Part shown: in pieces, positions 35,201 through 48,616 of the stretch | Layout of the letters: each line of letters opens with the position of its first letter | Numbering within the stretch: position 1 is the first letter of the stretch | NCBI RefSeq assembly: GCF_030373185.1 | Contig: NZ_JAUCZH010000007.1 | Coordinates: 186,001-250,000 of the forward strand | DNA from: Tabrizicola sp. | GTDB taxonomy: Bacteria > Pseudomonadota > Alphaproteobacteria > Rhodobacterales > Rhodobacteraceae | Length of the DNA: 64,000 nt | Direction: 5' to 3' | The notes under the pieces: generated by a model | What the model was told of the DNA's origin: nothing | The model's database searches: none | Seen by the model: the letters and a program-made list of their open reading frames with translations, nothing else | Position numbers and translations under genes: made by a program

Positions 35201-35737
35201 ATGCCCACCGGACATGTCTTCATTGCCACCAGCCTTGACGGCTTCATCGCCCGCAAGGATGGCGGCCTCGACTGGTTGATCCTGCCCGAACATGACGGCG
35301 AGGATCACGGCTATGCCGCCTTCATCAAGGACATCGACGCCATCGTCATGGGCCGTGGCAGCTATGAGGCGGTGTCGGGTTTTGATACCTGGCCCTATGA
35401 CAAGCCCGTGCTTGTCCTTTCCCGCCAGCTGGCCGGGACCACGGCGCCTGAAGCGCTGTCCGGCAAGGTCAGCTTCGCCGACCTTTCCCCCCGCGCCGCG
35501 ATGGAGCATCTGGGCCGGCAAGGCGCGAAACGCGTCTATGTCGACGGCGGCCAGATCGTGCAGTCCTTCCTGCGCGAGGGGCTGATCGCCGACATGGTCC
35601 TGTCAACGATTCCCGTCCTGATCGGCGAGGGGCGAAGCCTCTTTGGTCCGACGGGCGGCGACATTCATTTCGTCCATGACAGGTTCCTCAGCTTCCCCTC
35701 GGGCCTAGTGCAGTCGCGCTATCTGCTGCGCCCCTAG
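35201..35737 (+). CDS. Dihydrofolate-reductase-like protein (RibD C-terminal type)
   Basis: This 178-residue NAD(P)H-binding protein has the pattern MPTGHVFIATSLDGFIARKDGGLDWL, IDAIVMGRGSYEAV, KRVYVDGGQIVQSFLREGLIADMVLSTIPVLIGEGRSLF, as in the DHFR/RibD-C family of predicted reductases. The substrate is unknown; true folate reduction is unlikely. The start at 35201 has AGGAG nine bases upstream. Its stop overlaps the convergent CaiD-like gene by four bases (CTAG shared), leaving no room for a terminator. Confidence 0.88.
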   Translation: MPTGHVFIATSLDGFIARKDGGLDWLILPEHDGEDHGYAAFIKDIDAIVMGRGSYEAVSGFDTWPYDKPVLVLSRQLAGTTAPEALSGKVSFADLSPRAAMEHLGRQGAKRVYVDGGQIVQSFLREGLIADMVLSTIPVLIGEGRSLFGPTGGDIHFVHDRFLSFPSGLVQSRYLLRP

Positions 35738-36531
35738 CGGCCCTTCCACATGGGATCGCGCTTTTCGGCGAAAGCCTTTGCGCCCTCCAGCTGGTCCTCG
35801 CTGGAATAAAGCCGGTCCACCGTGGGCAGCAGCCGCTTGGAAACCCGGTTCAGCGCGTCCTGAAAGCGCATGTTCTCGGCCTCACGCACCACTTCCTTGA
35901 TCGCTGCGTAAACAAGGGGCGGGCCGCTTTCCAGCAGGCGGGCAAGATCCCAGGCTTTGGCCAGCAACTCTTCGGGCGCGCAGACCTCCTTGATCAGGCC
36001 CCAGCGATGCGCTTCCTCGGCGTCGAACCAACGGCCCGTCAGCAGAAGGTCCATCGCCACATGATAGGGGATGCGCTTCGGCAGTTTGATCGACGCCGCA
36101 TCGGCCACCGTCCCCGACCGGATTTCCGGCAAGGCGAAGGTCGCATTGGTCGAACAGAGAATCAGGTCCGCAGACAAGGCCAGTTCCAGCCCCCCGCCGC
36201 AGCAGATGCCCTGCACGGCGGCAATGACCGGCTTGTTGAGGTTCGGCAGCTCCTGCAACCCGCCAAACCCGCCAATGCCATAGTCGCCATCCACCGCATC
36301 GCCTTCGGCCGCGGCCTTCAGATCCCAGCCGGGGCAGAAGAACTTCTCGCCCGCCGCGCGCAGGATGCAGACCCGCAGACTGTCGTCGTCCCGGAAATCC
36401 CGAAACACCAACCCCATCACCCGGCTGGTCTTCAGGCTGATCGCATTGGCCTTGGGAGCGTCCAGCGTGACCTCCAGGATCGCCCCCTCGCGTCGCGTCT
36501 TCACGGGGCCTTCAGTCCGCATTTCCATCAT
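35734..36531 (-). CDS. Enoyl-CoA hydratase, carnitinyl-CoA dehydratase-like (CaiD type)
   Basis: This 265-residue crotonase-fold enzyme has oxyanion-hole segments GWDLKAAAEG and GICCGGGLELALSADL, and catalytic Glu-region LPEIRSGTVADAASIKLP. This last stretch resembles CaiD, which interconverts crotonobetainyl-CoA and L-carnitinyl-CoA. Its start overlaps the ligase stop by four bases (ATGA), so the two are co-translated. In this operon it would hydrate crotonobetainyl-CoA on the way from gamma-butyrobetaine to carnitine. The substrate is inferred from context and likeness. Confidence 0.85.
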   Translation of the reverse strand: MMEMRTEGPVKTRREGAILEVTLDAPKANAISLKTSRVMGLVFRDFRDDDSLRVCILRAAGEKFFCPGWDLKAAAEGDAVDGDYGIGGFGGLQELPNLNKPVIAAVQGICCGGGLELALSADLILCSTNATFALPEIRSGTVADAASIKLPKRIPYHVAMDLLLTGRWFDAEEAHRWGLIKEVCAPEELLAKAWDLARLLESGPPLVYAAIKEVVREAENMRFQDALNRVSKRLLPTVDRLYSSEDQLEGAKAFAEKRDPMWKGR

Positions 36532-38516
36532 TCCACTCTCCTGACCAAAGCATCCACCGCCACGGCACCCTCAACGCGCACCATGACCGGGTTGATTTCA
36601 ATTTCTTCCAGGCTCTCATCGGCAAGCATCAGCGCCGCCAGCCGCACCGCGATGTCGGCGACCGCCGACATGTCCGCCCGCGGTCGCCCGCGATAGCCGT
36701 CAAGCAACGGCCAGAGCCGCAGGCCCCGCGCCGCCCCCAGCACCTCGGCTTCCGTGACCGGCAGGACGAGCGTGACCGTATCGGCCAGCACCTCGGCCGT
36801 CACGCCGCCCATGCCCAAAGTCAGCGTCACGCCATAGACCGGATCGCGCCTGAGGCCGAGCAGAACCTCTGCCACCGCGCCGGTCACCATCTCCTCGACC
36901 AGATAGCCCGAGGCCCCCGGCATCTCGGCCTGGCCCTCCAGAGAGGTCACCCCCAGCCGAACTGCCCCGGCTTCGGTCTTGTGCGCAAACCCCAGACCCT
37001 TCAGGGCATAGGGCGGCTTCAAACCCGCTACATCCAGCGCAGCCAAAGTCGTCCCCGTCACCGAGCGCGGCACCGCCACCCCCGCCGCCGCGATCCGCGC
37101 CTTTCCGTCCGCCTCCGACAGCAGCCGCGTCTCCCGCCCTGGCAAGGCCCGAATGGGCCGCCAGCGCGCAATGCCTGGTGCCGTCTGCGCCGCCTTGACC
37201 GCCGCCAGCGCCGTCTCCAGCCCAAGGAGGGCGCAGACCCCCTCCGCCATCATCGCCTGCACCCGACTTTCGCCAAGGTTCTCCGCCATGGAGGCGACAG
37301 GCAGAGCGATCTTCCCGGTCGCCTTCTGTGCCGCAATGATCGCGCGGAACGCCGGTTCATAGCCGGAAGGATCGCAGCGGTCCGCCCGGGGGCTATCAAT
37401 GATGTAGAGCCCCGCGTCATAGGCCTCCAGCATCGCCGAAAAGACTTCGGTCGTCTTCGGCCCATCGCCCCAGATGAAGGTGTGGTAATCCAGGGGGTTC
37501 GAGATGGTCGGAATTTCTCCCAGCACCGCGAACAGCCGGTCATGCGTAGACTTCGGTACCGGAGGAAAGTCGATCCCGTAAGGCGCTGCAAGGTCCGCCA
37601 CCAGCCCCGCCTCGCCACCCGAACAGGACAGCGAGCAGATCCGCGTCCCGATCTGAGGGCCGTGAACATGGAATATTTTCAAGGTCTCGATCAGTTCCGA
37701 AGGCGTGTTGACCTCCGCCACCCCGATCTGGCGCAGGAAGGCGCTTGACGCGGCCCCACCACCCGCAAGCGAGGCAGTGTGGCTGGCCGCCGCAATCCGG
37801 CTAAGCTCAGTCTTGCCGGACTTGATCGCCACCACACCCTTGCCCATCCTGCGCGCCTTTTCGGCCAAGTCGGCGAACGCCGAGGCATCGTCGATCCCTT
37901 CGATATAGAGGCCAACCGCCGTCACCCGGGCATCGTCCAGAAGCGCCCCGGTCAACTCGGCCAACCCGACGACGGCGGCATTGCCCAGACAGGCGACATA
38001 GGCCACCGGCAGACCGCGCTGCTGCATGCCCATGTTGATGACGATGTTGGAAGACTGGCTTACCAGCGCCACACCCGTGTCGACCCGGACGCCGCCGTGC
38101 TGGTCCGGCCAGAGCAGCGCCCCATCAAGGTAGTTGATGACCCCATAACAGTTCGGCCCAAGGATCGGCATGTCTCCCGCAGCAGATACCAACCGATCCT
38201 GCAGTCCTGCTTCGCCCGCCTCGGTCCAGCCCGAGGCAAAGCAGATCGCGCCGCCAGCGCCCATGGCGGCAAGCTCGGAGACCACGTCCAGCGTGGCATG
38301 TCGGTTCACCCCGATGAAGGTTGCATCCGGCGGCTCTGGCAAGTCGGCGAGGCTGGCATAGGCCTTCAGTCCGCCGATCTCGGGCTTCGTCGGATGCACC
38401 GGCCAGACCGGACCCGCGAACCCCATCTTCCGACACTGTTCTATGACATTCAGCCCCCATCCGGCCCCCAGAACGGCAATGTGGCGCGGACGCAGGAGAC
38501 GGTCGAGGCGGCTCAT
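36528..38516 (-). CDS. NDP-forming acyl-CoA ligase, two-domain ATP-grasp (likely betaine-type acyl substrate)
   Basis: This 662-residue single chain has the NDP-forming acetyl-CoA synthetase layout: a CoA-binding domain (1-130, IAVLGAGWGLNVIEQCRKMG), a succinyl-CoA-ligase-like domain with phospho-His region ASHTASLAGG (His about 240), and a C-terminal ATP-grasp (about 455-660, YALKGLGFAHKTEAGAVRLG). It makes an acyl-CoA from acid, CoA and ATP, giving ADP and phosphate, which is cheaper than the AMP route. Together with the CaiD-like hydratase and the acyl-CoA dehydrogenase it most likely activates gamma-butyrobetaine, crotonobetaine or carnitine. It stands downstream of a 256-bp gap filled by two repeats. 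Confidence 0.82.
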   Translation of the reverse strand: MSRLDRLLRPRHIAVLGAGWGLNVIEQCRKMGFAGPVWPVHPTKPEIGGLKAYASLADLPEPPDATFIGVNRHATLDVVSELAAMGAGGAICFASGWTEAGEAGLQDRLVSAAGDMPILGPNCYGVINYLDGALLWPDQHGGVRVDTGVALVSQSSNIVINMGMQQRGLPVAYVACLGNAAVVGLAELTGALLDDARVTAVGLYIEGIDDASAFADLAEKARRMGKGVVAIKSGKTELSRIAAASHTASLAGGGAASSAFLRQIGVAEVNTPSELIETLKIFHVHGPQIGTRICSLSCSGGEAGLVADLAAPYGIDFPPVPKSTHDRLFAVLGEIPTISNPLDYHTFIWGDGPKTTEVFSAMLEAYDAGLYIIDSPRADRCDPSGYEPAFRAIIAAQKATGKIALPVASMAENLGESRVQAMMAEGVCALLGLETALAAVKAAQTAPGIARWRPIRALPGRETRLLSEADGKARIAAAGVAVPRSVTGTTLAALDVAGLKPPYALKGLGFAHKTEAGAVRLGVTSLEGQAEMPGASGYLVEEMVTGAVAEVLLGLRRDPVYGVTLTLGMGGVTAEVLADTVTLVLPVTEAEVLGAARGLRLWPLLDGYRGRPRADMSAVADIAVRLAALMLADESLEEIEINPVMVRVEGAVAVDALVRRVE

Positions 38517-38772: not shown

Positions 38773-39936
38773 TCAACCCCCAACCGCCCTCAGCAGTTCT
38801 CGGCTGATGATGTGCCGCTGGATCTCGGACGTTCCCTCCCAGATCCGCTCCACCCGGCTGTCGCGCCAGATCCGCTCCAAAGGCAATTCGTCCATCAGCC
38901 CCATCCCACCATGGATCTGGATCGCCTCGTCCGCGACCATCGCCAGCACCTCGGTCGCCTTCAGCTTGGCCATGGCCATATCGGCCTCGGTCACCGAACC
39001 CTGATCATACTTCCAGGCAGCTTCCCGCGTCAGAAGCTCCGCCGCCTTCAGTTCCATCGCCATATCGGCCAGCTTGAAGCTGACCCCCTGAAACTTGCCA
39101 ATCTGCTGCCCAAACTGCTTGCGCTCTGCCGCGTAACTGATCGCATGTCCCAGCGCCCGCTCCGCCCGACCAAGGCAGGTGCTTGCAACCTGCAACCGGG
39201 TCGCCCCCAGCCAGCTGTTCGCCACCTCAAAGCCCTTATGCACTTCGCCCAGCACATTCGCTGCTGGCACCCGGCAGTCGTCGAACTCCAGCACCGCGTT
39301 GGTGTAGCCACGGTGACTGACGTTCCGATACCCCTCGCGCACCGTGAAGCCGGGCGTCCCTTTGTCGACGAAGAAGGCGGTGATCAGCTTCTTCGGTCCG
39401 CGCGGGGTGTCTTCCTCCCCGCTCGCCATGAAGACGATGGCAAAGCCCGCAAGGTCGGCGTGGCTGATGAAATGCTTTGTCCCGTTCAGCACCCAGTCGT
39501 CGCCATCCGGGCGCGCCGTGGCCTTCATCCCCCGCAGATCGGACCCGGCGCCCGGTTCGGTCATGGCGAGGCAATCCCAGGTCTCTCCGCGGATGCAGGG
39601 CATCAGGTAGCGTTCCCGCTGTTCCGCGTTCCCCGCCAGCAGGATGTTCGAGGGCCGCGCCACGCAGGTCCAGTGCAGGGCATAGTTCGCCCGCCCCAGT
39701 TCCTTTTCATAAAGGAGCCACGACAGGGTATCGAGGCCAGCCCCACCCACCTCGACCGGCATATTGGCCGCATAAAGCCCCGCCGCCATGGCCTTTTGCT
39801 GCAACTCGCGGATCACCTCCAGCGGCAGCACGCCCGAGCGTTCGACCGCTGCCTCATGCGGGTAAAGCTCCGTCTCGACAAAGGCGCGGGTCGTCTCGAC
39901 GATCATCCGCTGTTCTTCGGTCAGGCCAAAATCCAT
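38773..39936 (-). CDS. Acyl-CoA dehydrogenase, gamma-butyrobetainyl-CoA/crotonobetainyl-CoA type candidate
   Basis: This 387-residue FAD enzyme has the standard three-domain fold: an N-terminal helical part from MDFGLTEEQRMIVETTRAFVETELYP, a middle beta domain with AMTEPGAGSDLRGMKATA, and a C-terminal helical domain ending IHGGMGLMDELPLERIWRDSRVERIWEGTSEIQRHIISRELL. The catalytic base would be the Glu of WEGTSE, the usual short-chain position. The start at 39936 has GAGG at six bases. It follows the SDR gene by 7 bp. In this pathway it would make crotonobetainyl-CoA from gamma-butyrobetainyl-CoA; this is context-based. Confidence 0.88.
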   Translation of the reverse strand: MDFGLTEEQRMIVETTRAFVETELYPHEAAVERSGVLPLEVIRELQQKAMAAGLYAANMPVEVGGAGLDTLSWLLYEKELGRANYALHWTCVARPSNILLAGNAEQRERYLMPCIRGETWDCLAMTEPGAGSDLRGMKATARPDGDDWVLNGTKHFISHADLAGFAIVFMASGEEDTPRGPKKLITAFFVDKGTPGFTVREGYRNVSHRGYTNAVLEFDDCRVPAANVLGEVHKGFEVANSWLGATRLQVASTCLGRAERALGHAISYAAERKQFGQQIGKFQGVSFKLADMAMELKAAELLTREAAWKYDQGSVTEADMAMAKLKATEVLAMVADEAIQIHGGMGLMDELPLERIWRDSRVERIWEGTSEIQRHIISRELLRAVGG

Positions 39937-39943
39937 CGCATCC

Positions 39944-40696
39944 TCACGGGTCAACGTTGTAGGTCATGCCGTCCACAGCCAGCGCCTGGCCAGAGACCAT
40001 CCTTGCGGCTGCGGATGCGAGGAAGACGGCCATGTCGGCAACGTCCTCAGCATCCGTAAGCCGCTTCATCGCGGTGCCAGAGGCATAGCCCCGCCGCACA
40101 TCATCGGGCGACATCCCCTTGGCTGCCGCTTCCACTTCGATCACCCGGTCGATTCTGGGGCCATTGACCGACCCGGGGCAGATCGCGTTCGCCCGGATGC
40201 CATGCGGCCCCAGTTCCATCGCGACCGTCTTCATCAGCCCGATCACCCCCCATTTCGCCGCCACGTAAGGCGCGCGGAACGGCGTGCCGTAAAGGCCGCT
40301 GGTCGAGGAGATGAAGGTGATCACCCCCGCCCGCGCCGGTTTCATCAGCCGGGCAGCACCCCGCGCCAGCAGCATCGCGCCGTCAAGGTTCACCCCCAGG
40401 CACTGGCGCCAGGCTTCCAGCGGCATGTCCTCGATCGCCTCCGTCGGCCCCTTGATCCCAGCATTCGCAATGGCGACGTCAAGCCCGCCCCAATCCTGCG
40501 CGACTTCGGCGAACAGCGTCTCCATCCCCGGTTCCGATGCCGCATCGACGACCGAGCCGCGAATGCCCGCCGGCAACACAGCGATCAACCCTTCGTCGAC
40601 GTCAGTCACCCAGACGCGGTCCCCCGACGCGGCAAAGGCCTGCGCCATGACAAGGCCAATCCCGCCCGCGCCTGCCGTGATCAGAACCCGCCTCAT
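39944..40696 (-). CDS. Short-chain dehydrogenase/reductase
   Basis: This 250-residue Rossmann-fold oxidoreductase has the cofactor loop AGAGGIG (8-14), Asp in VTDVD suggesting NAD(H) preference, NAG in IANAGIKG, and the catalytic YVAAK. The preceding Ser is in ISSTSGLYG. It is coupled to the fused carnitine dehydrogenase by a 4-bp ATGA overlap and is followed at 7 bp by the acyl-CoA dehydrogenase. Its substrate in carnitine breakdown is not settled: it could handle D-carnitine, 3-hydroxybutyrate made from released acetoacetate, or another intermediate. Confidence 0.88.
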   Translation of the reverse strand: MRRVLITAGAGGIGLVMAQAFAASGDRVWVTDVDEGLIAVLPAGIRGSVVDAASEPGMETLFAEVAQDWGGLDVAIANAGIKGPTEAIEDMPLEAWRQCLGVNLDGAMLLARGAARLMKPARAGVITFISSTSGLYGTPFRAPYVAAKWGVIGLMKTVAMELGPHGIRANAICPGSVNGPRIDRVIEVEAAAKGMSPDDVRRGYASGTAMKRLTDAEDVADMAVFLASAAARMVSGQALAVDGMTYNVDP

Positions 40697-42150
40697 GCCC
40701 GCCGCGCACCAATCGCCCGCCCGACACCATCTGGCCGCGCCAGAACGGCGTGCGCCGTCGCAATTGGCATCAACCGTGCCAGCACCTCAGGCGCCGCCGC
40801 GCAGGTCTTGCCGGCTTTCATGTCGACGTGCAGGCACATCTGCTCGATCGTCGCGACGACCTCGTCGCCACGGGACAGAGTGATAAAGTGGTGCAGTCGC
40901 TTGTCGTCGGCATGAATGACCTGCAGCGCCCCGGTCAGACGGTCGCCCAGCTTTGCCTCGCCCCGGTGCAGGATATGGGTTTCCGCCGTGTAGTAGCTGT
41001 GGCCGCCCGCGACATAGTCCATGTCCGCCCCGATCAACCGCAAGAAGGCATCCGCGACTTCCGAGGCGCAGAACAGATAGCGGCTTTCGGTCATGTGGCC
41101 GTTGTAGTCGATCCATGAGGGCAGCACCTGCAACTCTGCCATCTTCAGAGGCGTTCCGGTCAACTCGCCTGCGTGGAAAGCCTCTCGGCGCCGCTCGTCA
41201 TGGTCCCGCAACACCTTGCCCGCGCCCCAATTGCGGTCCTTCAGGGACCGCAGGAACCCCACAAGGTTCTGGTCCCGGATCCGCTCCAATTCGCGGATGG
41301 TGTGATGCCCCGACTGCGCGTCCGACTGGTCCGCCACCAGATCCACCAACGCGTCGTTGAATTCCGGTACATCCATCAATTTGGTCCATGGCCATTTCAG
41401 CGCCGGTCCGAACTGCGCCATGAAATGCCGCATCCCGGCCTCGCCACCCGCCACGCGGTAGGTCTCGAAAAGGCCCATCTGGCCCCAGCGCAGGCCAAAG
41501 CCCATGCGGATCGCGTCGTCGATCTCTTCGGTCGTGGCGACGCCATCGACCAGCATCCACAGGGCCTCGCGCCAGACCGCCTCTAGGAAACGGTTGCCGA
41601 TGAAGGCGTCGATCTCCTTGCGCAGAACCAGCGGGAACATCCCGATGTCCTTCATGATCTGCACCGTCCGCTCGACCACCTCGGGCGGGTTCGCCGGGCT
41701 GCCGGAAATCTCGGACAGGGGCAGCAGATAGACCGGGTTGAACGGATGGGCGACGATGATGTTTTCAGGTGCCGAGCTGGATTTCTGCAGGTCCGACGCC
41801 TTGAAGCCGCTGGTCGAGGACCCGATCAGCACCCCGGGGTTCGATTGCTGCAACTGGGCATAGACCTTGTGCTTCAGCTCGATCCGTTCCGAGACACTTT
41901 CCTGGACATACTCCGCCCCCTCGACCGCCTCGGCCATTGTGCCGGCAAAACTCAGCCGTCCCTCTGCGGGCATCGGCACGTCCGACAGTGCCGGAAGGGC
42001 GGCCCGGGCATTGGCAAGAACTTCATTTATCTTGCGCTCCGCCTCGGGGTCGGGATCGAACACCGCCACGTCCCAGCCGTTCAGCAAGAACCGAGCGGTC
42101 CAGCCGCCGCCGATCACCCCACCGCCAATGATTGCCGCCTTGCGCGCCAT
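40693..42150 (-). CDS. lcdH: L-carnitine dehydrogenase fused to betainyl-CoA thioesterase
   Basis: This 485-residue protein has two parts. Residues 1-325 are a 3-hydroxyacyl-CoA-dehydrogenase-type Rossmann enzyme (GGGVIGGGW at 9-17; catalytic His in AHPFNPVYLLPL; ETYRVAGGEAGMRHFM) that oxidises L-carnitine to 3-dehydrocarnitine with NAD+. Residues about 336-470 form a hot-dog thioesterase (VLPSWIDYNGHMTESRYL with Asp348 and His352; YTAETHILHRGEAKLGD). Such fusions are known in Rhizobium-type carnitine pathways (CdhA plus CdhB). The start at 42150 has GAGGGGA. The two activities flank the cleavage step of the nearby BKACE, so glycine betaine is the expected end product. Confidence 0.92.
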   Translation of the reverse strand: MARKAAIIGGGVIGGGWTARFLLNGWDVAVFDPDPEAERKINEVLANARAALPALSDVPMPAEGRLSFAGTMAEAVEGAEYVQESVSERIELKHKVYAQLQQSNPGVLIGSSTSGFKASDLQKSSSAPENIIVAHPFNPVYLLPLSEISGSPANPPEVVERTVQIMKDIGMFPLVLRKEIDAFIGNRFLEAVWREALWMLVDGVATTEEIDDAIRMGFGLRWGQMGLFETYRVAGGEAGMRHFMAQFGPALKWPWTKLMDVPEFNDALVDLVADQSDAQSGHHTIRELERIRDQNLVGFLRSLKDRNWGAGKVLRDHDERRREAFHAGELTGTPLKMAELQVLPSWIDYNGHMTESRYLFCASEVADAFLRLIGADMDYVAGGHSYYTAETHILHRGEAKLGDRLTGALQVIHADDKRLHHFITLSRGDEVVATIEQMCLHVDMKAGKTCAAAPEVLARLMPIATAHAVLARPDGVGRAIGARRA

Positions 42151-42175
42151 CACGCTTCCCCTCACGTCTTGCTTT

Positions 42176-42799
42176 TCATTGTGCCGCCCGCGCCGTTGCA
42201 AGGGTAGCATCGGTCAACGGGACGCGCTCACCCGCCCGGATCACCGCAGGGTCATAGGCCTTGCGCGCAAACACCTCGCGCACAAGGTCCGCGAAATCCT
42301 CGACCTGCATCGTCGGATATGCCGGATCGAAACTCGACTGGTCCCACTGCTCGCAGAAGGCATCGCAGTCGTCGAAATAGGCGTGACCCTTGAAACGGTC
42401 CCGCGCATGGCGATTGCCGCCAGTGTGGTGCGCATAATACAGCCGCTGGAAATCACCGTGCTTTTCCACCACCCATGTGACCTGCTCGCGCACGAAGGGC
42501 TTCAGGATCGCTGCGGCGTATTCATCGTGATTGTAGGGCGCGAAGATGTCGCCGATGTCATGCAGCAATGCAGCCACCACCCAGTCTGTATCCGCCCCCG
42601 CCCGCCAGGCCCGCGTCGCCGCCTGCAACGAATGACCCAGCCGCGTCACCTGATAACCCGACAGGCTTTCATCCAGCGCCACCAAGGCGCCCAACAAACG
42701 ATCCGCCGTCCCCGCCGCATACTCCCGCTCATGCACATCCAGCATTGCGTAATCGCTCGCATCGCCTTCCTTCATCGCGGTGAATTTGACCTTGTCCAT
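42176..42799 (-). CDS. HD-domain protein, possible PhnZ/TmpB-like diiron oxygenase
   Basis: This 207-residue protein has His56 (GHSLQAA), the HD pair His80-Asp81 (LLHDIGD), His91 (NHDEY), His114 (EKHGDF) and Asp residues near 153-158. The 24-residue gap between the first His and HD equals that in PhnZ, and a Tyr/Glu-rich N-terminal helix (HEREYAAG) is in the place of the PhnZ lid. This layout fits HD-domain diiron enzymes of the PhnZ, TmpB and MIOX type better than nucleotide phosphohydrolases. It sits 1 bp after the BKACE stop and 25 bp before the carnitine dehydrogenase. Function unknown; an oxygenase acting on a trimethylammonium intermediate is a testable inference. Confidence 0.75.
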   Translation of the reverse strand: MDKVKFTAMKEGDASDYAMLDVHEREYAAGTADRLLGALVALDESLSGYQVTRLGHSLQAATRAWRAGADTDWVVAALLHDIGDIFAPYNHDEYAAAILKPFVREQVTWVVEKHGDFQRLYYAHHTGGNRHARDRFKGHAYFDDCDAFCEQWDQSSFDPAYPTMQVEDFADLVREVFARKAYDPAVIRAGERVPLTDATLATARAAQ

Positions 42800-42800
42800 G

Positions 42801-43715
42801 TCAGCACCCCACCGGCGCGCGCTTTTCCAGCTTCAGCCGGGCGCGCACTTCCGCCGGGGTGATCACCCGTGCGCCCATGCTTTCCACGATGGTGCAGGCC
42901 CGCTCCACCAGTTGCGCGTTGGTTGCCAGAACGCCCTTGTCCAGCCAGAGGTTGTCTTCCAGCCCGACGCGCACATTGCCACCACCCAGCACCGCCGCCG
43001 CCACATAAGCCATCTGGTTCCGTCCAAGGCCGAATGCCGACCAGTGCCAGCCCTGCGGCACGTTGTTGACCATCGCCATGTAGGTGTTCAGATCATCCGG
43101 CGCGCCCCACGGCACGCCCATACACAGTTGCACCAGCACCGGGTCGGGGATCACACCCTCACGCACCAGTTCCTTGGCAAGCCACAGATGCCCGGTGTCG
43201 AACGCCTCGATCTCGATCCGCACCCCCGCCGCCGTCATCCGCCTGGCCATGTCGCGCAGCATGCCCGGCGTGTTGACCATCACATAATCGGCCTCGTTGA
43301 AGTTCATCGTGCCGCAGTCGAGCGTGCAGATCTCCGGCCGGCATTCCACCACATGTGCAACCCGCTCTTCGGCCCCCGCCATATCGGACCGCGGGCCAAT
43401 GCGCCCCATGTCCTCGGTGCCTTCAAAGTAGATGTCGCCGCCCATGCCAGCGGTCAGGTTCAGCACCACGTCTGTATCGCTGTCGCGGATGCGCTCGGTC
43501 ACCTCGCGGTAATATTCCAGGCGACGAGAGGGCTTGCCCGTCTCGGGGTCGCGCACATGGCAATGCACCACAGCCGCCCCCGCCTTGGCGGCCGCGATGG
43601 CGCTATCTGCGATCTGCTTTGGCGACCGAGGCACATGCGAGCTGCGGTCCTGCGTGCCGCCCGATCCGGTCACGGCACAGGTGATGAAGACTTCGCGGTT
43701 CATGGTCAGCGGCAT
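42801..43715 (-). CDS. Beta-keto acid cleavage enzyme (BKACE, DUF849), likely 3-dehydrocarnitine:acetyl-CoA trimethylamine transferase
   Basis: This 304-residue TIM-barrel enzyme has the zinc-binding pair in AAVVHCHVRDPETG (His51, His53), a third ligand area CTLDCGTMNF, and E in EIEAFDTGHLWLA. In carnitine catabolism the enzyme (CdhC in Pseudomonas) uses acetyl-CoA to split 3-dehydrocarnitine into betainyl-CoA and acetoacetate. The neighbouring fused dehydrogenase-thioesterase supplies the steps before and after, which makes this assignment strong. The start at 43715 has GGGAGGG. It heads the operon, divergent from the regulator gene. Confidence 0.9.
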   Translation of the reverse strand: MPLTMNREVFITCAVTGSGGTQDRSSHVPRSPKQIADSAIAAAKAGAAVVHCHVRDPETGKPSRRLEYYREVTERIRDSDTDVVLNLTAGMGGDIYFEGTEDMGRIGPRSDMAGAEERVAHVVECRPEICTLDCGTMNFNEADYVMVNTPGMLRDMARRMTAAGVRIEIEAFDTGHLWLAKELVREGVIPDPVLVQLCMGVPWGAPDDLNTYMAMVNNVPQGWHWSAFGLGRNQMAYVAAAVLGGGNVRVGLEDNLWLDKGVLATNAQLVERACTIVESMGARVITPAEVRARLKLEKRAPVGC

Positions 43716-43785
43716 GGCACCCTCCCTTGTTGAGACCCAGCATAGCCCGCTTGCGCGCCCACGCTTTGCACTTTACGAAATCTTC

Positions 43786-44793
43786 ATGACGCAAAACGCA
43801 ATCTTCACTCGCGCGACCAGTCCCCTGACGATCGCTCTTTTCGTTCTTCCACAAGCCTCGATCCTTGAGGTCGCGTCGGCACTCGATCCCCTTCGCAACG
43901 CCAACCGCCATCTTGGGCATGAAGCCTACCGCTGGCGCGTCGTCACACCCGATGGCCAACCCGTACCGCTGACCTGCGGTATCGAACTCCCCTCCTCCGG
44001 AAATCTCGCAGACGCCAGCGGAGCCGACGCTCTTGTCGTCATTGCGGGCTATCGGCTGGCCGAGGTCGCCACCCGCCCCCTGATCCGCGACCTGCGACGC
44101 ATCGCCCCGCGCTTTCAGCTGGTAGGAGGTGTCGACGCCGCCCCCTGGGTCATGGCGCGCGCAGGGCTGCTGGACGGCCACCGTGCCACCGTGCATTGGG
44201 AAGACCTCGAAGATCTCGCCGCCGCCCATCCCGAAATCGACGTGGTTCCCGACCGCTACGTGATCGACCGCAACCGCGCCACCATCGGCGGTGCCGCGGC
44301 CGCATCGGATTTCATGCTGCACCTGATCCACGCCCGCCATGGGGCGGCGCTGGCCCGCCAGGTCGCCGCCAGCTTTCTTGCAACCGTCCGCAAGGGAACC
44401 GAGCCTCAGATCGCCCCAACAAGACAGGACCCCGCCCTTGACCCCCGGGTCGCCCGCGCCGTGGCGCAGATGGAGGCAGCATTGGACGCCCCCGCACCTA
44501 TCCCGATCATCGCGGCAAGCCTCGGCCTGTCCCCCCGCCGCCTTGAAACCCTGTTCCGGCAGAACCTCGGCCTCACACCCGGCGCCTACGCCCTTGGCCT
44601 GCGCCTCGCCGCCGCCCGCCGCATGCTGACCGACACCAGACACCCCCTGTCCGAAATCGCGCTCCGCACAGGCTTTTCAAGCCCGGCGACCCTGTCCCGC
44701 GCCTTCCGGGCAAGGTTTGGCCAGCCCCCGGGATCACTTCGACCAGCAGGCTTCCTCTCTGCCCAAATATCCCACGGGGGTGCGGGGGTGTGA
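43786..44793 (+). CDS. GlxA/CdhR-type AraC-family regulator of carnitine genes
   Basis: This 335-residue protein has an N-terminal DJ-1/PfpI-like ligand domain (about 12-195, IALFVLPQASILEVASALDPLRNANR, LVVIAGYR, LVGGVDAAPWVMARAG) and a C-terminal AraC double helix-turn-helix (about 235-325, IIAASLGLSPRRLETLFRQNLG and ALRTGFSSPATLSRAFRARFGQPP). CdhR and GbdR-class activators of carnitine and betaine breakdown share this build. It is divergent from the BKACE operon with 70 bp between starts, the classical place for its binding site. The last residues (SAQISHGGAGV) are encoded by a dispersed repeat that supplies the stop codon. Confidence 0.88.
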   Translation: MTQNAIFTRATSPLTIALFVLPQASILEVASALDPLRNANRHLGHEAYRWRVVTPDGQPVPLTCGIELPSSGNLADASGADALVVIAGYRLAEVATRPLIRDLRRIAPRFQLVGGVDAAPWVMARAGLLDGHRATVHWEDLEDLAAAHPEIDVVPDRYVIDRNRATIGGAAAASDFMLHLIHARHGAALARQVAASFLATVRKGTEPQIAPTRQDPALDPRVARAVAQMEAALDAPAPIPIIAASLGLSPRRLETLFRQNLGLTPGAYALGLRLAAARRMLTDTRHPLSEIALRTGFSSPATLSRAFRARFGQPPGSLRPAGFLSAQISHGGAGV

Positions 44794-46994: not shown

Positions 46995-47792
46995 TTACCG
47001 CCGGTCCCGCCCGCGCAACCGCGCCTCCAGCCGCCGCAACACCAGACTGAGGCCGATCGTCATCGTCAGATAGATCAGCGCCGCCACGTTATAGGTTTCG
47101 AAATATCGAAAATTTCCCGCCGCCGTGACCTTGGCCAGTTGGGTGATGTCCGTCACCCCCAGCACGCTGACCAATGACGAATCCTTCACCATCGCCACGA
47201 AATCATTGCCAAGGGGTGGCAGCACCATCCGGAACGCCTGCGGAAAGACGATATGGCGGAAACGCTGCCAGCCGTTCAGGCCCAAGGCCTTGGCCGCCTC
47301 GATCTGGCCCTTGTCCACGGCCTGCAAACCGGCGCGGAAGATTTCGGCCAGAAAGGCCGAATAGGCCAGCATCAGCGCAATCACCGCGCGCCACAAAAGC
47401 GGAAAATCCCGCCCCCGCACCTCATCAAGGCCCAAAGGCACCGCCAGCCAGTTCCACCCGGCCACCAGCCCCGGCGCCACCACGAAAGCCACATAAAGCA
47501 GCAAGACGATGATCGGGATGCCCCGCATCACCTCGATATAAAGCCGGGCCGCCTGCCGCAGTACGATGAAGCGCGACATCCCCGCCAGCGCCAGCCCAAG
47601 GCCGATCAGGCAGGCCCCGAAATAGGCCACCAGCGTCACCAGAACCGTGATCCAGATACCCTTGGACAGCGTGTTCAGTGCAGCGGAATAGACGTCGCTC
47701 GCCCAGACCTCATAAAACAGCCAAAGGCCGGTGACCGTCACGATCACCAGCCACCATGGAAAGTCCTTGTCGGGTTCGGGGTTCGGGGTCAT
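46995..47792 (-). CDS. Polar amino-acid ABC transporter permease
   Basis: This 265-residue membrane protein has about six helices and the HisM/GlnP-type signature, including YIEVMRGIPIIVLLLYVAF and the EAA loop EIFRAGLQAVDKGQIEAAKALGLNGWQRFRHIVFPQA. The start at 47792 (MTPNPEPDKDFPWW) is preferred over a TTG six bases before. It forms a unit with the binding-protein gene 38 bp upstream. Only one permease and no ATPase gene is present here, so it probably makes a homodimer and borrows an ATPase, or the partner is elsewhere. Confidence 0.93.
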   Translation of the reverse strand: MTPNPEPDKDFPWWLVIVTVTGLWLFYEVWASDVYSAALNTLSKGIWITVLVTLVAYFGACLIGLGLALAGMSRFIVLRQAARLYIEVMRGIPIIVLLLYVAFVVAPGLVAGWNWLAVPLGLDEVRGRDFPLLWRAVIALMLAYSAFLAEIFRAGLQAVDKGQIEAAKALGLNGWQRFRHIVFPQAFRMVLPPLGNDFVAMVKDSSLVSVLGVTDITQLAKVTAAGNFRYFETYNVAALIYLTMTIGLSLVLRRLEARLRGRDRR

Positions 47793-47830
47793 CGACAAGG
47801 CCCGGACGTCACCGCCCGGGCCATCTGGCC

Positions 47831-48616
47831 TTACTCGCCCATCTTGTAGTCAAGGAACCATTTGGTGTTCAGCGCATCGATCGTGCCGTCCGCACGCATC
47901 GCGGCAATCGCGGCATTCATCGGTGCCACAAGGTCGCTGCCCTTGGGGAAGATGAAGCCGAAATCCTCGGTCCCCAGCTTTTCGCCCACGATCTTCAGAC
48001 CACCGGCGCTGGCTTCGACATAGCCCGCCCCTGCCGTCCCATCGGTCAGCACCAGATCGACGTCACCGGATTTCAGCGCCTCGACCGTTGCGCCGAAGGT
48101 CTCGAACAGCTTGATCCGCGGGTTGGCCTCATTGCCATCCAGCACATCATAGACGCCAACATAGAACGGAGTGGTCCCCGGCTGCGCCGCCATCAACAGA
48201 TCGGCATCTGCGGCAAAGCTGACGGCATCGCTGAAGCGTTCCTCATCGCCGCGCACCATCATCACCATTTCGCTGGTCATGTAGCTGTCAGAAAAATCCA
48301 CCTGCTCCCTGCGGTCATCGCGGATGGTGATCCCGGTCATCCCCAGATCGAACTGGCCTTCCGACACCGCCGGGATCATCGCATCCCAGGAGATGTTCTC
48401 ATATTTCACCGCAATGTTCAGCCGATTGGCGATTTCAGCCATCGCGTCATATTCCCAGCCCACAGCCGCGCCCGAGGCATCAAGGAACTGAAGCGGTGGA
48501 TAGGCATTTTCGGTCACCACAACCACCTCGCGCCCGGCCAGATCAGGCAAGCTCTGGGCGAAGGCAGGTGCGGCAAGCAGGCCAAGGCCCAAAAGGGCGG
48601 CAGCGGTCAGTTTCAT
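47831..48616 (-). CDS. Periplasmic amino-acid-binding protein (SBP family 3)
   Basis: This 261-residue protein has a signal peptide ([20 protein letters not shown]) and the family 3 pattern [60 protein letters not shown], and [36 protein letters not shown]. It delivers a polar amino acid or related ligand to the permease encoded just downstream. The ligand is not clear; glutamine, cystine-like and opine-like proteins share this form. Confidence 0.93.

Follow-up and report, generated by a model that had tools for sequence, protein, structure and literature searches.

A putative HD-domain oxygenase related to PhnZ and TmpB in a carnitine operon of Tabrizicola sp.

The operon and its HD gene

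The window, i.e., the whole stretch of 64,000 nucleotides that was analysed, contains a minus-strand operon read in the order BKACE, HD protein, carnitine dehydrogenase-thioesterase, SDR, acyl-CoA dehydrogenase, ADP-forming acyl-CoA synthetase and enoyl-CoA hydratase. A regulatory gene diverges from it on the plus strand.

43720..44793, plus strand: divergent DJ-1/PfpI plus AraC-type regulator (Pfam; start codon uncertain)
42801..43715, minus strand: BKACE, beta-keto acid cleavage enzyme (Pfam BKACE 336.8 bits, cut-off 24.8)
42176..42799, minus strand: HD-domain protein of 207 amino acids, proposed dinuclear-iron oxygenase (Pfam, NCBIfam, PDB, alignments)
40693..42153, minus strand: carnitine 3-dehydrogenase-thioesterase fusion (NF005716, PRK07531, 744.6 bits, cut-off 592; 4HBT_2)
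39944..40696, minus strand: SDR, FabG/3-hydroxybutyrate-dehydrogenase-like (below the curated NCBIfam cut-offs shown)
38773..39954, minus strand: acyl-CoA dehydrogenase (Pfam; NCBIfam matches under cut-offs)
36528..38516, minus strand: ADP-forming acyl-CoA synthetase (Pfam; NCBIfam matches under cut-offs)
35734..36531, minus strand: enoyl-CoA hydratase, best match crotonobetainyl-CoA hydratase (NCBIfam 300.4 bits, cut-off 500)

An earlier note on this DNA had placed the HD gene in a carnitine operon. The open reading frame is real, and its start codon is separated by one base from the end of the upstream BKACE gene. The operon label is borne out by the scores of BKACE and of the carnitine dehydrogenase (CDH), the latter being the only one among the gamma-butyrobetaine (GBB)/carnitine-type enzymes of the operon to exceed its NCBIfam cut-off; its start codon was set at 42153 within a frame open from 42210. 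As judged from these assignments, the gene set resembles the one leading from GBB via carnitine to glycine betaine. It shares synthetase, acyl-CoA dehydrogenase, hydratase, dehydrogenase-thioesterase and BKACE with the aerobic GBB/L-carnitine operon of the Sinorhizobium meliloti type. For S. meliloti, Bazire et al. reportedly described in 2019 a five-enzyme route of carnitine metabolism without an HD enzyme step. Pfam and NCBIfam scans of the operon genes returned no nucleotide-related gene. The SDR was considered as an obligate partner and rejected, as it occupies its operon place in only 4 of the 80 closest loci (best 80 of 449). Elsewhere in the window, at 46995-48616, two ORFs resemble, as judged by eye, the permease and the binding protein of an amino-acid ABC transporter.

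Relation to the known HD oxygenases

Kinship to PhnZ and TmpB, as implied by the earlier note, was supported by PDB searches, NCBIfam matches below cut-offs and a profile alignment. The Pfam scan gave 29.8 bits for HD and 20.1 bits for MIOX (myo-inositol oxygenase, PF05153; gathering cut-off 25). The NCBIfam matches were TIGR03276 (38.1 bits, cut-off 214.6), NF049941 for TmpB (30.1, cut-off 300) and NF052439 for PhnZ1 (29.8, cut-off 300); weak TIGR03276 matches are not specific, because 5 of 14 control genomes also match below the cut-off. In the PDB, searched with the single sequence up to E 10, PhnZ (1.9e-5) and TmpB (0.0023) were followed by a Cas10 chain (0.055) and MIOX (0.15 and 0.18). 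The family profile retrieved, up to the same limit, PhnZ (2.3e-9), TmpB (1.6e-6), the Cas10 chain (0.38) and no others; PhnZ and TmpB were its only matches under E 0.1. No metabolic HD phosphohydrolase appeared up to E 10 in either search. Alignment of a profile of 84 homologues with one of six TmpB/PhnZ-like proteins reached a probability of 98.7 and an E value of 1.4e-16 over 134 columns. Four of these six reference proteins were scanned: three exceeded the TmpB cut-off (341.9, 308.9 and 324.8 vs 300), and the fourth, L230, is PhnZ-like with 211.7 bits for TIGR03276 (cut-off 214.6). With PhnZ and TmpB ranking first, the HD protein is at the sequence level closer to the known oxygenases than to HD hydrolases.

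Six residues are candidate metal ligands, with the TmpB residues on which they fall in the profile alignment given in brackets.

42632..42634, minus strand: codon of His56, candidate ligand 1 (TmpB His41)
42557..42562, minus strand: codons of His80-Asp81, candidate ligands 2 and 3 (TmpB His65-Asp66)
42527..42529, minus strand: codon of His91, candidate ligand 4 (TmpB His87)
42458..42460, minus strand: codon of His114, candidate ligand 5 (TmpB His110)
42341..42343, minus strand: codon of Asp153, candidate ligand 6 (TmpB Asp167)

All six are identical in 104/104 aligned family sequences, comprising the query, 92 of 100 class loci and 11 database proteins; eight class loci were left out, the reason being ORF length in all but the one that had no clean ORF. 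The six are likewise invariant in 79/79 carnitine-operon loci, and judged on the alignment their conservation is more than chance. The histidines and the HD pair had been read correctly before, and the "later Asp" of that reading is D153 in a WDQ motif. The PhnZ/TmpB-like layout proposed then thus stands for all six ligands, including the 24-residue step from H56 to H80, which equals PhnZ H34 to H58 and TmpB H41 to H65 (TmpB numbers being those of sequence L221, PhnZ numbers those of the PDB alignment). Further along, the chain is more compact than in TmpB, with 11 vs 22 residues from the HD pair to the third His and 39 vs 57 from the fourth His to the last Asp.

The Tyr/Glu lid, which had been named as a feature to look for, is absent. 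The YxxE motif reads LxxY, PhnZ Y24 and E27 aligning to L46 and Y49, and the YLGE of TmpB is replaced by LSGY, of which the GY is conserved in the relatives of the HD protein. HDxGH becomes HDIGD with Asp84 at the +4 His, the Lys of AKRY is Gln118, and the LSxAS...LQGG loop is missing; HDxGH, AKRY and the loop are invariant in the six reference proteins. In PhnZ or MIOX, the +4 residue and the Lys of AKRY are in contact with the substrate. D84 and Q118 occur in 79/79 loci of the carnitine-operon type and in 30/31 core loci (here those at >=185 tblastn bits; the remaining row is a gap), and in 81% and 99%, respectively, of the wider 104-sequence set. Based on lid, loop and score cut-offs, membership in PhnZ, TmpB or MIOX was rejected.

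Compared with the characterised enzymes one by one, TmpB (6NPA; NF049941), the (R)-1-hydroxy-2-trimethylaminoethylphosphonate oxygenase, shares the HD core with its six ligands and the trimethylammonium context, relatives of the HD protein being paired with a TmpA-like dioxygenase; it differs in lid, HDxGH motif, Lys/Gln118 and loop as well as by the wide gap to its model's cut-off. At least one genome of Mesorhizobium (L045/L234) encodes TmpA and TmpB, both over their cut-offs, in addition to this HD protein. PhnZ (4MLM, 4N6W, 4N71), the 2-amino-1-hydroxyethylphosphonate oxygenase, is the best PDB sequence match with the same first step, and PhyH-type neighbours of the HD relatives resemble the phnY-phnZ arrangement, PhnY being a PhyH-family member. 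The HD protein departs from PhnZ in having no YxxE lid, 11 residues fewer before the third His and no dioxygenase partner found in the window's genome. MIOX has the same six-ligand order, cleaves C-C bonds and is also without the YxxE loop (PMC8177086), and it is set apart by the sub-threshold Pfam score and the PDB E value of 0.15.

Linkage to carnitine genes and to 2-oxoglutarate dioxygenases

The HD gene is flanked by BKACE on one side and CDH on the other in 78/80 of the closest loci (best 80 of 449 confirmed, mostly Mesorhizobium). One exception, L008, begins at a contig edge. The other, L042 (7293-8621, Mesorhizobium sp. CA8), holds a second, intact HD copy with a second, apparently shortened BKACE fragment, next to two FAD/GcvT-type dehydrogenase-like proteins and one ferredoxin-reductase-like protein. 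In a tree that took in 55 of 115 sequences, the carnitine-operon sequences group with the PhyH-paired L113 and the stand-alone L111 (UFBoot 100), deeper nodes being weak (46, 56) before one of 97.

Extension of the survey to the class showed 109 of 385 genomes to match the HD protein at 1e-10. Among 100 class neighbourhoods, BKACE and a CDH-like gene adjoin it in L134 only, with a CDH of 334 bits (model cut-off 592) and an HD sequence branching with those of SAR11 type, a label derived from a single near match with the name Pelagibacteraceae. Weaker CDH-like matches lie near HD genes without BKACE in L147, L160 and L209. The co-occurrence of HD and carnitine dehydrogenase genes was examined on genome level, all p values being raw Fisher tests uncorrected for phylogeny. 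Within the window's taxonomic family (149 genomes), 49 carry the HD protein at 1e-50 and 111 a carnitine dehydrogenase at 1e-150: both are found in 44, HD only in 5, CDH only in 67 and neither in 33 (44/49 vs 67/100, p 0.0025). Across the class, a carnitine dehydrogenase at 1e-80 is present in 25/33 core-HD genomes (here, and in the TauD counts below, the 33 best genomes at >=208 bits) vs 39/352 others (p 1.8e-15), the latter splitting into 22/76 for the rest of the HD family and 17/276 for genomes without HD; at the CDH model's own cut-off, the ratio is 11/33 vs 15/352 (p 1.1e-6).

The linkage to BKACE and carnitine dehydrogenase, for which a neighbourhood survey had been suggested, holds for the closest loci but not across the taxonomic family, where the HD gene lies inside a carnitine operon in only 3 of the 49 HD-bearing genomes, i.e., the window's own, G414 (L242) and G416 (L243), as counted from a by-eye comparison of gene positions with two of the three loci (L242, L243) read. 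Since 67 of the 111 family genomes with carnitine dehydrogenase are without HD and only three have it in the operon, the HD protein is no obligatory component of carnitine breakdown, although the two do occur together; its association with carnitine genes is genuine without being universal. In HD-less relatives of the operon, other ORFs lie between BKACE and CDH (L225:5972-6511 and L229:6149-6715). In L245, homologues of the acyl-CoA dehydrogenase (50%) and the synthetase (38%) of the operon are followed some 2 kb downstream by an HD relative (70% identical), without CDH or BKACE.

The earlier note had drawn attention to the partnership of TmpB with a homologue of GBB hydroxylase (GBBH). Pairing with 2-oxoglutarate (2OG) dioxygenases, as known from tmpA-tmpB and phnY-phnZ, was indeed found among the relatives, and a TmpA/GBBH partner was not found in the window's genome. 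Among the 49 family genomes with HD, 22 have a PhyH-family dioxygenase (assigned to PF05721 in the four scanned) directly upstream on the same strand with 5-65 bp between the matches. Counted by family genome, PhyH and HD occur together in 29, HD only in 20, PhyH only in 3 and neither in 97 (p 1.3e-14, uncorrected). Of the 33 best-matching genomes of the class, eight have a TmpA/GBBH-like TauD dioxygenase directly preceding HD on the same strand, at 35-97 bp. This adjacency was computed for 35 HD places (the best places of 32 of the 33 core genomes, the own genome being without TauD, plus G064 and G281) against 32 of 75 TauD matches; by eye, no further adjacent pair was seen in the remaining HD places and TauD matches. 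Looser arrangements are a divergent one in G148, a TauD gene one gene away in G064 and one next to an HD fragment in G281. The five HD-paired TauD enzymes scanned are closer to TmpA than to GBBH (334-358 vs 250-278 bits), and one searched in the PDB matched TmpA at 3.2e-58 and GBBH at 6e-36. A TmpA-model match at 1e-80 is present in 24/33 core-HD genomes vs 30/352 others.

The roles of the anion-binding residues in GBBH and TmpA are given in PMC9296572. At the anion-binding Asn, 11/11 enzymes carry Asp, namely L222, the eight encoded directly upstream of HD and two of SAR11 type that have no linkage to HD; these may be viewed as a TmpA/GBBH-like subfamily (L116, L118, L126, L130, L133, L214, L215, L216, L217, L218, L222). 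The looser TauD neighbours L119 (G148) and L169 (G064) keep Asn. The second Asn of TmpA is Pro, Ser or Thr in the Asp-type enzymes, at a position that varies (Asn, Ser, Ala) among five aligned TmpA-type proteins. Because Asp replaces the anion-binding Asn, the eight paired enzymes are probably not GBB hydroxylases, and this weakens the case for carnitine as a common substrate. That two different 2OG families serve as partners suggests more than one origin of the pairing and speaks for an action of the HD enzyme on a hydroxylated product.

The window's genome (96% complete) encodes one HD protein of this family, has no TauD-type dioxygenase match at 1e-5 and gave a weak best match of 24.7 bits to the PhyH partner. 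With no TauD match at that threshold, the idea of a TmpA- or GBBH-type partner here was dropped. A phosphonate pathway, considered as an explanation of why the HD gene sits in this operon, was set aside as well, there being no TauD match and a sole TIGR03276 match at E 0.01, the HD protein itself, below cut-off. Among 22 other operon genomes, TmpA over its cut-off is found in 12, weaker members only in 4 and none at 1e-40 in 6. The TauD matches listed for these genomes score either >=544.8 or <=276.7 bits, none falling in the HD-paired range of ~334-358.

Proposed function and competing explanations

HD oxygenases are listed in a 2020 review as three, MIOX, PhnZ and TmpB (PMC8177086), and a 2023 review extends the list by variants of PhnZ, each of them acting on phosphonates (PMC10574752). 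Listings and abstract openings of the open-licence literature contained no description of the present HD protein, and its relatives are numerous, with 6815 database matches at E 0.001 and at least 7999 in a second search. We propose that it belongs to a distinct, apparently undescribed subfamily of HD dinuclear-iron oxygenases, akin to PhnZ, TmpB and MIOX and acting likeliest on carnitine-series substrates, a reading that in our judgement has about the same chance of holding as of failing. The HD protein itself is probably an oxygenase that acts on carnitine-like compounds and has so far gone unrecognised, and the claim that it works like PhnZ and TmpB is moderately supported. Iron, O2 chemistry, substrate and product are here inferred by analogy. 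The oxidation of a quaternary-ammonium compound, suggested previously, is plausible.

According to PMC8177086, MIOX, PhnZ and TmpB have a mixed-valent diiron site at which Fe1 takes up the substrate and Fe2 the O2; a hydrogen is then abstracted and a C-C or C-P bond broken with no external reductant. By analogy, H56, H80, D81, H91, H114 and D153 would hold such a diiron pair, with a hydroxyl-bearing substrate bound to one iron and O2 to the other. Abstraction of the hydrogen of the carbinol carbon would be followed by cleavage of the neighbouring bond without a reductase, overall R-CHOH-R' + O2 -> R-COOH + R'-OH. In many relatives, the hydroxylated substrate would probably be supplied by the next-door 2OG dioxygenase; in the window's genome, the hydroxyl is presumably already present. 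As no dioxygenase partner was found there, the substrate must arrive hydroxylated or via the CoA-dependent route of the operon, which makes carnitine-series compounds the first choice. The substrate class is probably a hydroxylated quaternary-ammonium acid, here of the carnitine series. L- or D-carnitine or a hydroxylated by-product would be the likeliest substrates, with glycine betaine as a plausible product. Alpha-hydroxyphosphonate cleavage is (R)-specific and TmpB forms glycine betaine, as stated in PMC10574752.

TmpB-type chemistry transferred to the operon would give carnitine + O2 -> glycine betaine + glycolate. Such a one-step O2 split of carnitine between C2 and C3, with a large sister family, SAR11-type members included, doing the same on 2OG-hydroxylated betaines, is a bold reading that we consider unlikely. 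If true, it would be the C-C analogue of C-P cleavage by TmpB and would bypass NAD, CoA and BKACE, perhaps serving D-carnitine. In PMC12482172, trimethylaminoacetone is reported to be higher on carnitine, and older cell extracts cited there turned it into glycine betaine, which leaves room for further enzymes in this area of metabolism.

A hydrolytic function, as phosphohydrolase or phosphodiesterase with a dinuclear site, is suggested by the JGI name of relatives, 'predicted HD phosphohydrolase', and by Cas10 as the one non-oxygenase PDB match, the HD domain of which belongs to the nucleases. Dinuclear HD hydrolases such as YqeK and HD-GYP have closely similar ligand sets, as described in PMC8177086, and the six-ligand motif is found in dinuclear hydrolases as well. 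We nevertheless regard hydrolysis as quite improbable, as PhnZ and TmpB outrank all other PDB chains, metabolic HD phosphohydrolases are missing up to E 10, relatives pair with two Fe/2OG dioxygenase families and no nucleotide-related gene was seen among the operon genes scanned. It is somewhat easier to imagine, though still unlikely, that the protein is an HD oxygenase with another substrate, e.g., a general clean-up or osmolyte enzyme, and that its carnitine-operon place is opportunistic. Many family members stand alone or near unrelated genes such as valS, rho or purF-gshA, other homologues have sarcosine oxidase genes and a GbdR-like regulator in their vicinity, and 8/33 core-HD genomes, SAR11-type among them, are without a carnitine dehydrogenase at 1e-80. 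Against this count the flanking by BKACE and CDH in nearly all of the closest loci, the separate association in L134 and the genome-wide co-occurrence with carnitine dehydrogenase, uncorrected for phylogeny as it is.

The Asp-type TauD partners bring in a further candidate, since the human trimethyllysine hydroxylase likewise has Asp at the anion-binding Asn position of GBBH and TmpA, as do 8/8 TauD enzymes directly upstream of relatives. The HD protein might accordingly act as a 3-hydroxy-trimethyllysine oxygenase, cleaving C2-C3 to GBB, glyoxylate and ammonia and so feeding the GBB-to-carnitine enzymes of the operon, the other genes of which fit a start from GBB. We give this only a slim probability: no substrate-making hydroxylase was found in the own genome (no TauD, PhyH match weak), 0/22 carnitine-operon genomes have a listed TauD in the HD-paired score range, and the looser TauD neighbours keep Asn. 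Our preferred reading stays with an oxygenase for carnitine-series substrates. A family that combines the ligands of MIOX, PhnZ and TmpB with repeated 2OG pairing, and is without the phosphonate signature, could carry HD oxygenase chemistry over to the C-C cleavage of common osmolytes; the turnover of carnitine and betaine would then gain a step that depends on O2.

Several loci of the wider family were recorded in parallel. In L121 (6078-6638) and L122, both SAR11-type, an HD relative (52-57% identical) lies between purF and gshA/gshB for glutathione synthesis, and a TauD dioxygenase like the HD-paired ones is encoded at another place in these genomes. Distant HD homologues in L137, L153, L158 and L163 are found near sarcosine-oxidase-type genes and a GATase/AraC regulator; among those scanned, one soxB and one soxA exceeded their cut-offs, and one GbdR-like regulator scored below. 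In G030 (L222:6865-8013), an enolase-superfamily MR_MLE protein takes the place where L216, with a neighbourhood matched by ORF sizes only, and L130 have the HD gene. It is accompanied by DMSP-demethylase-like, MFS, YjgF/RidA-like and TauD genes and possibly represents a functional replacement of the HD protein.
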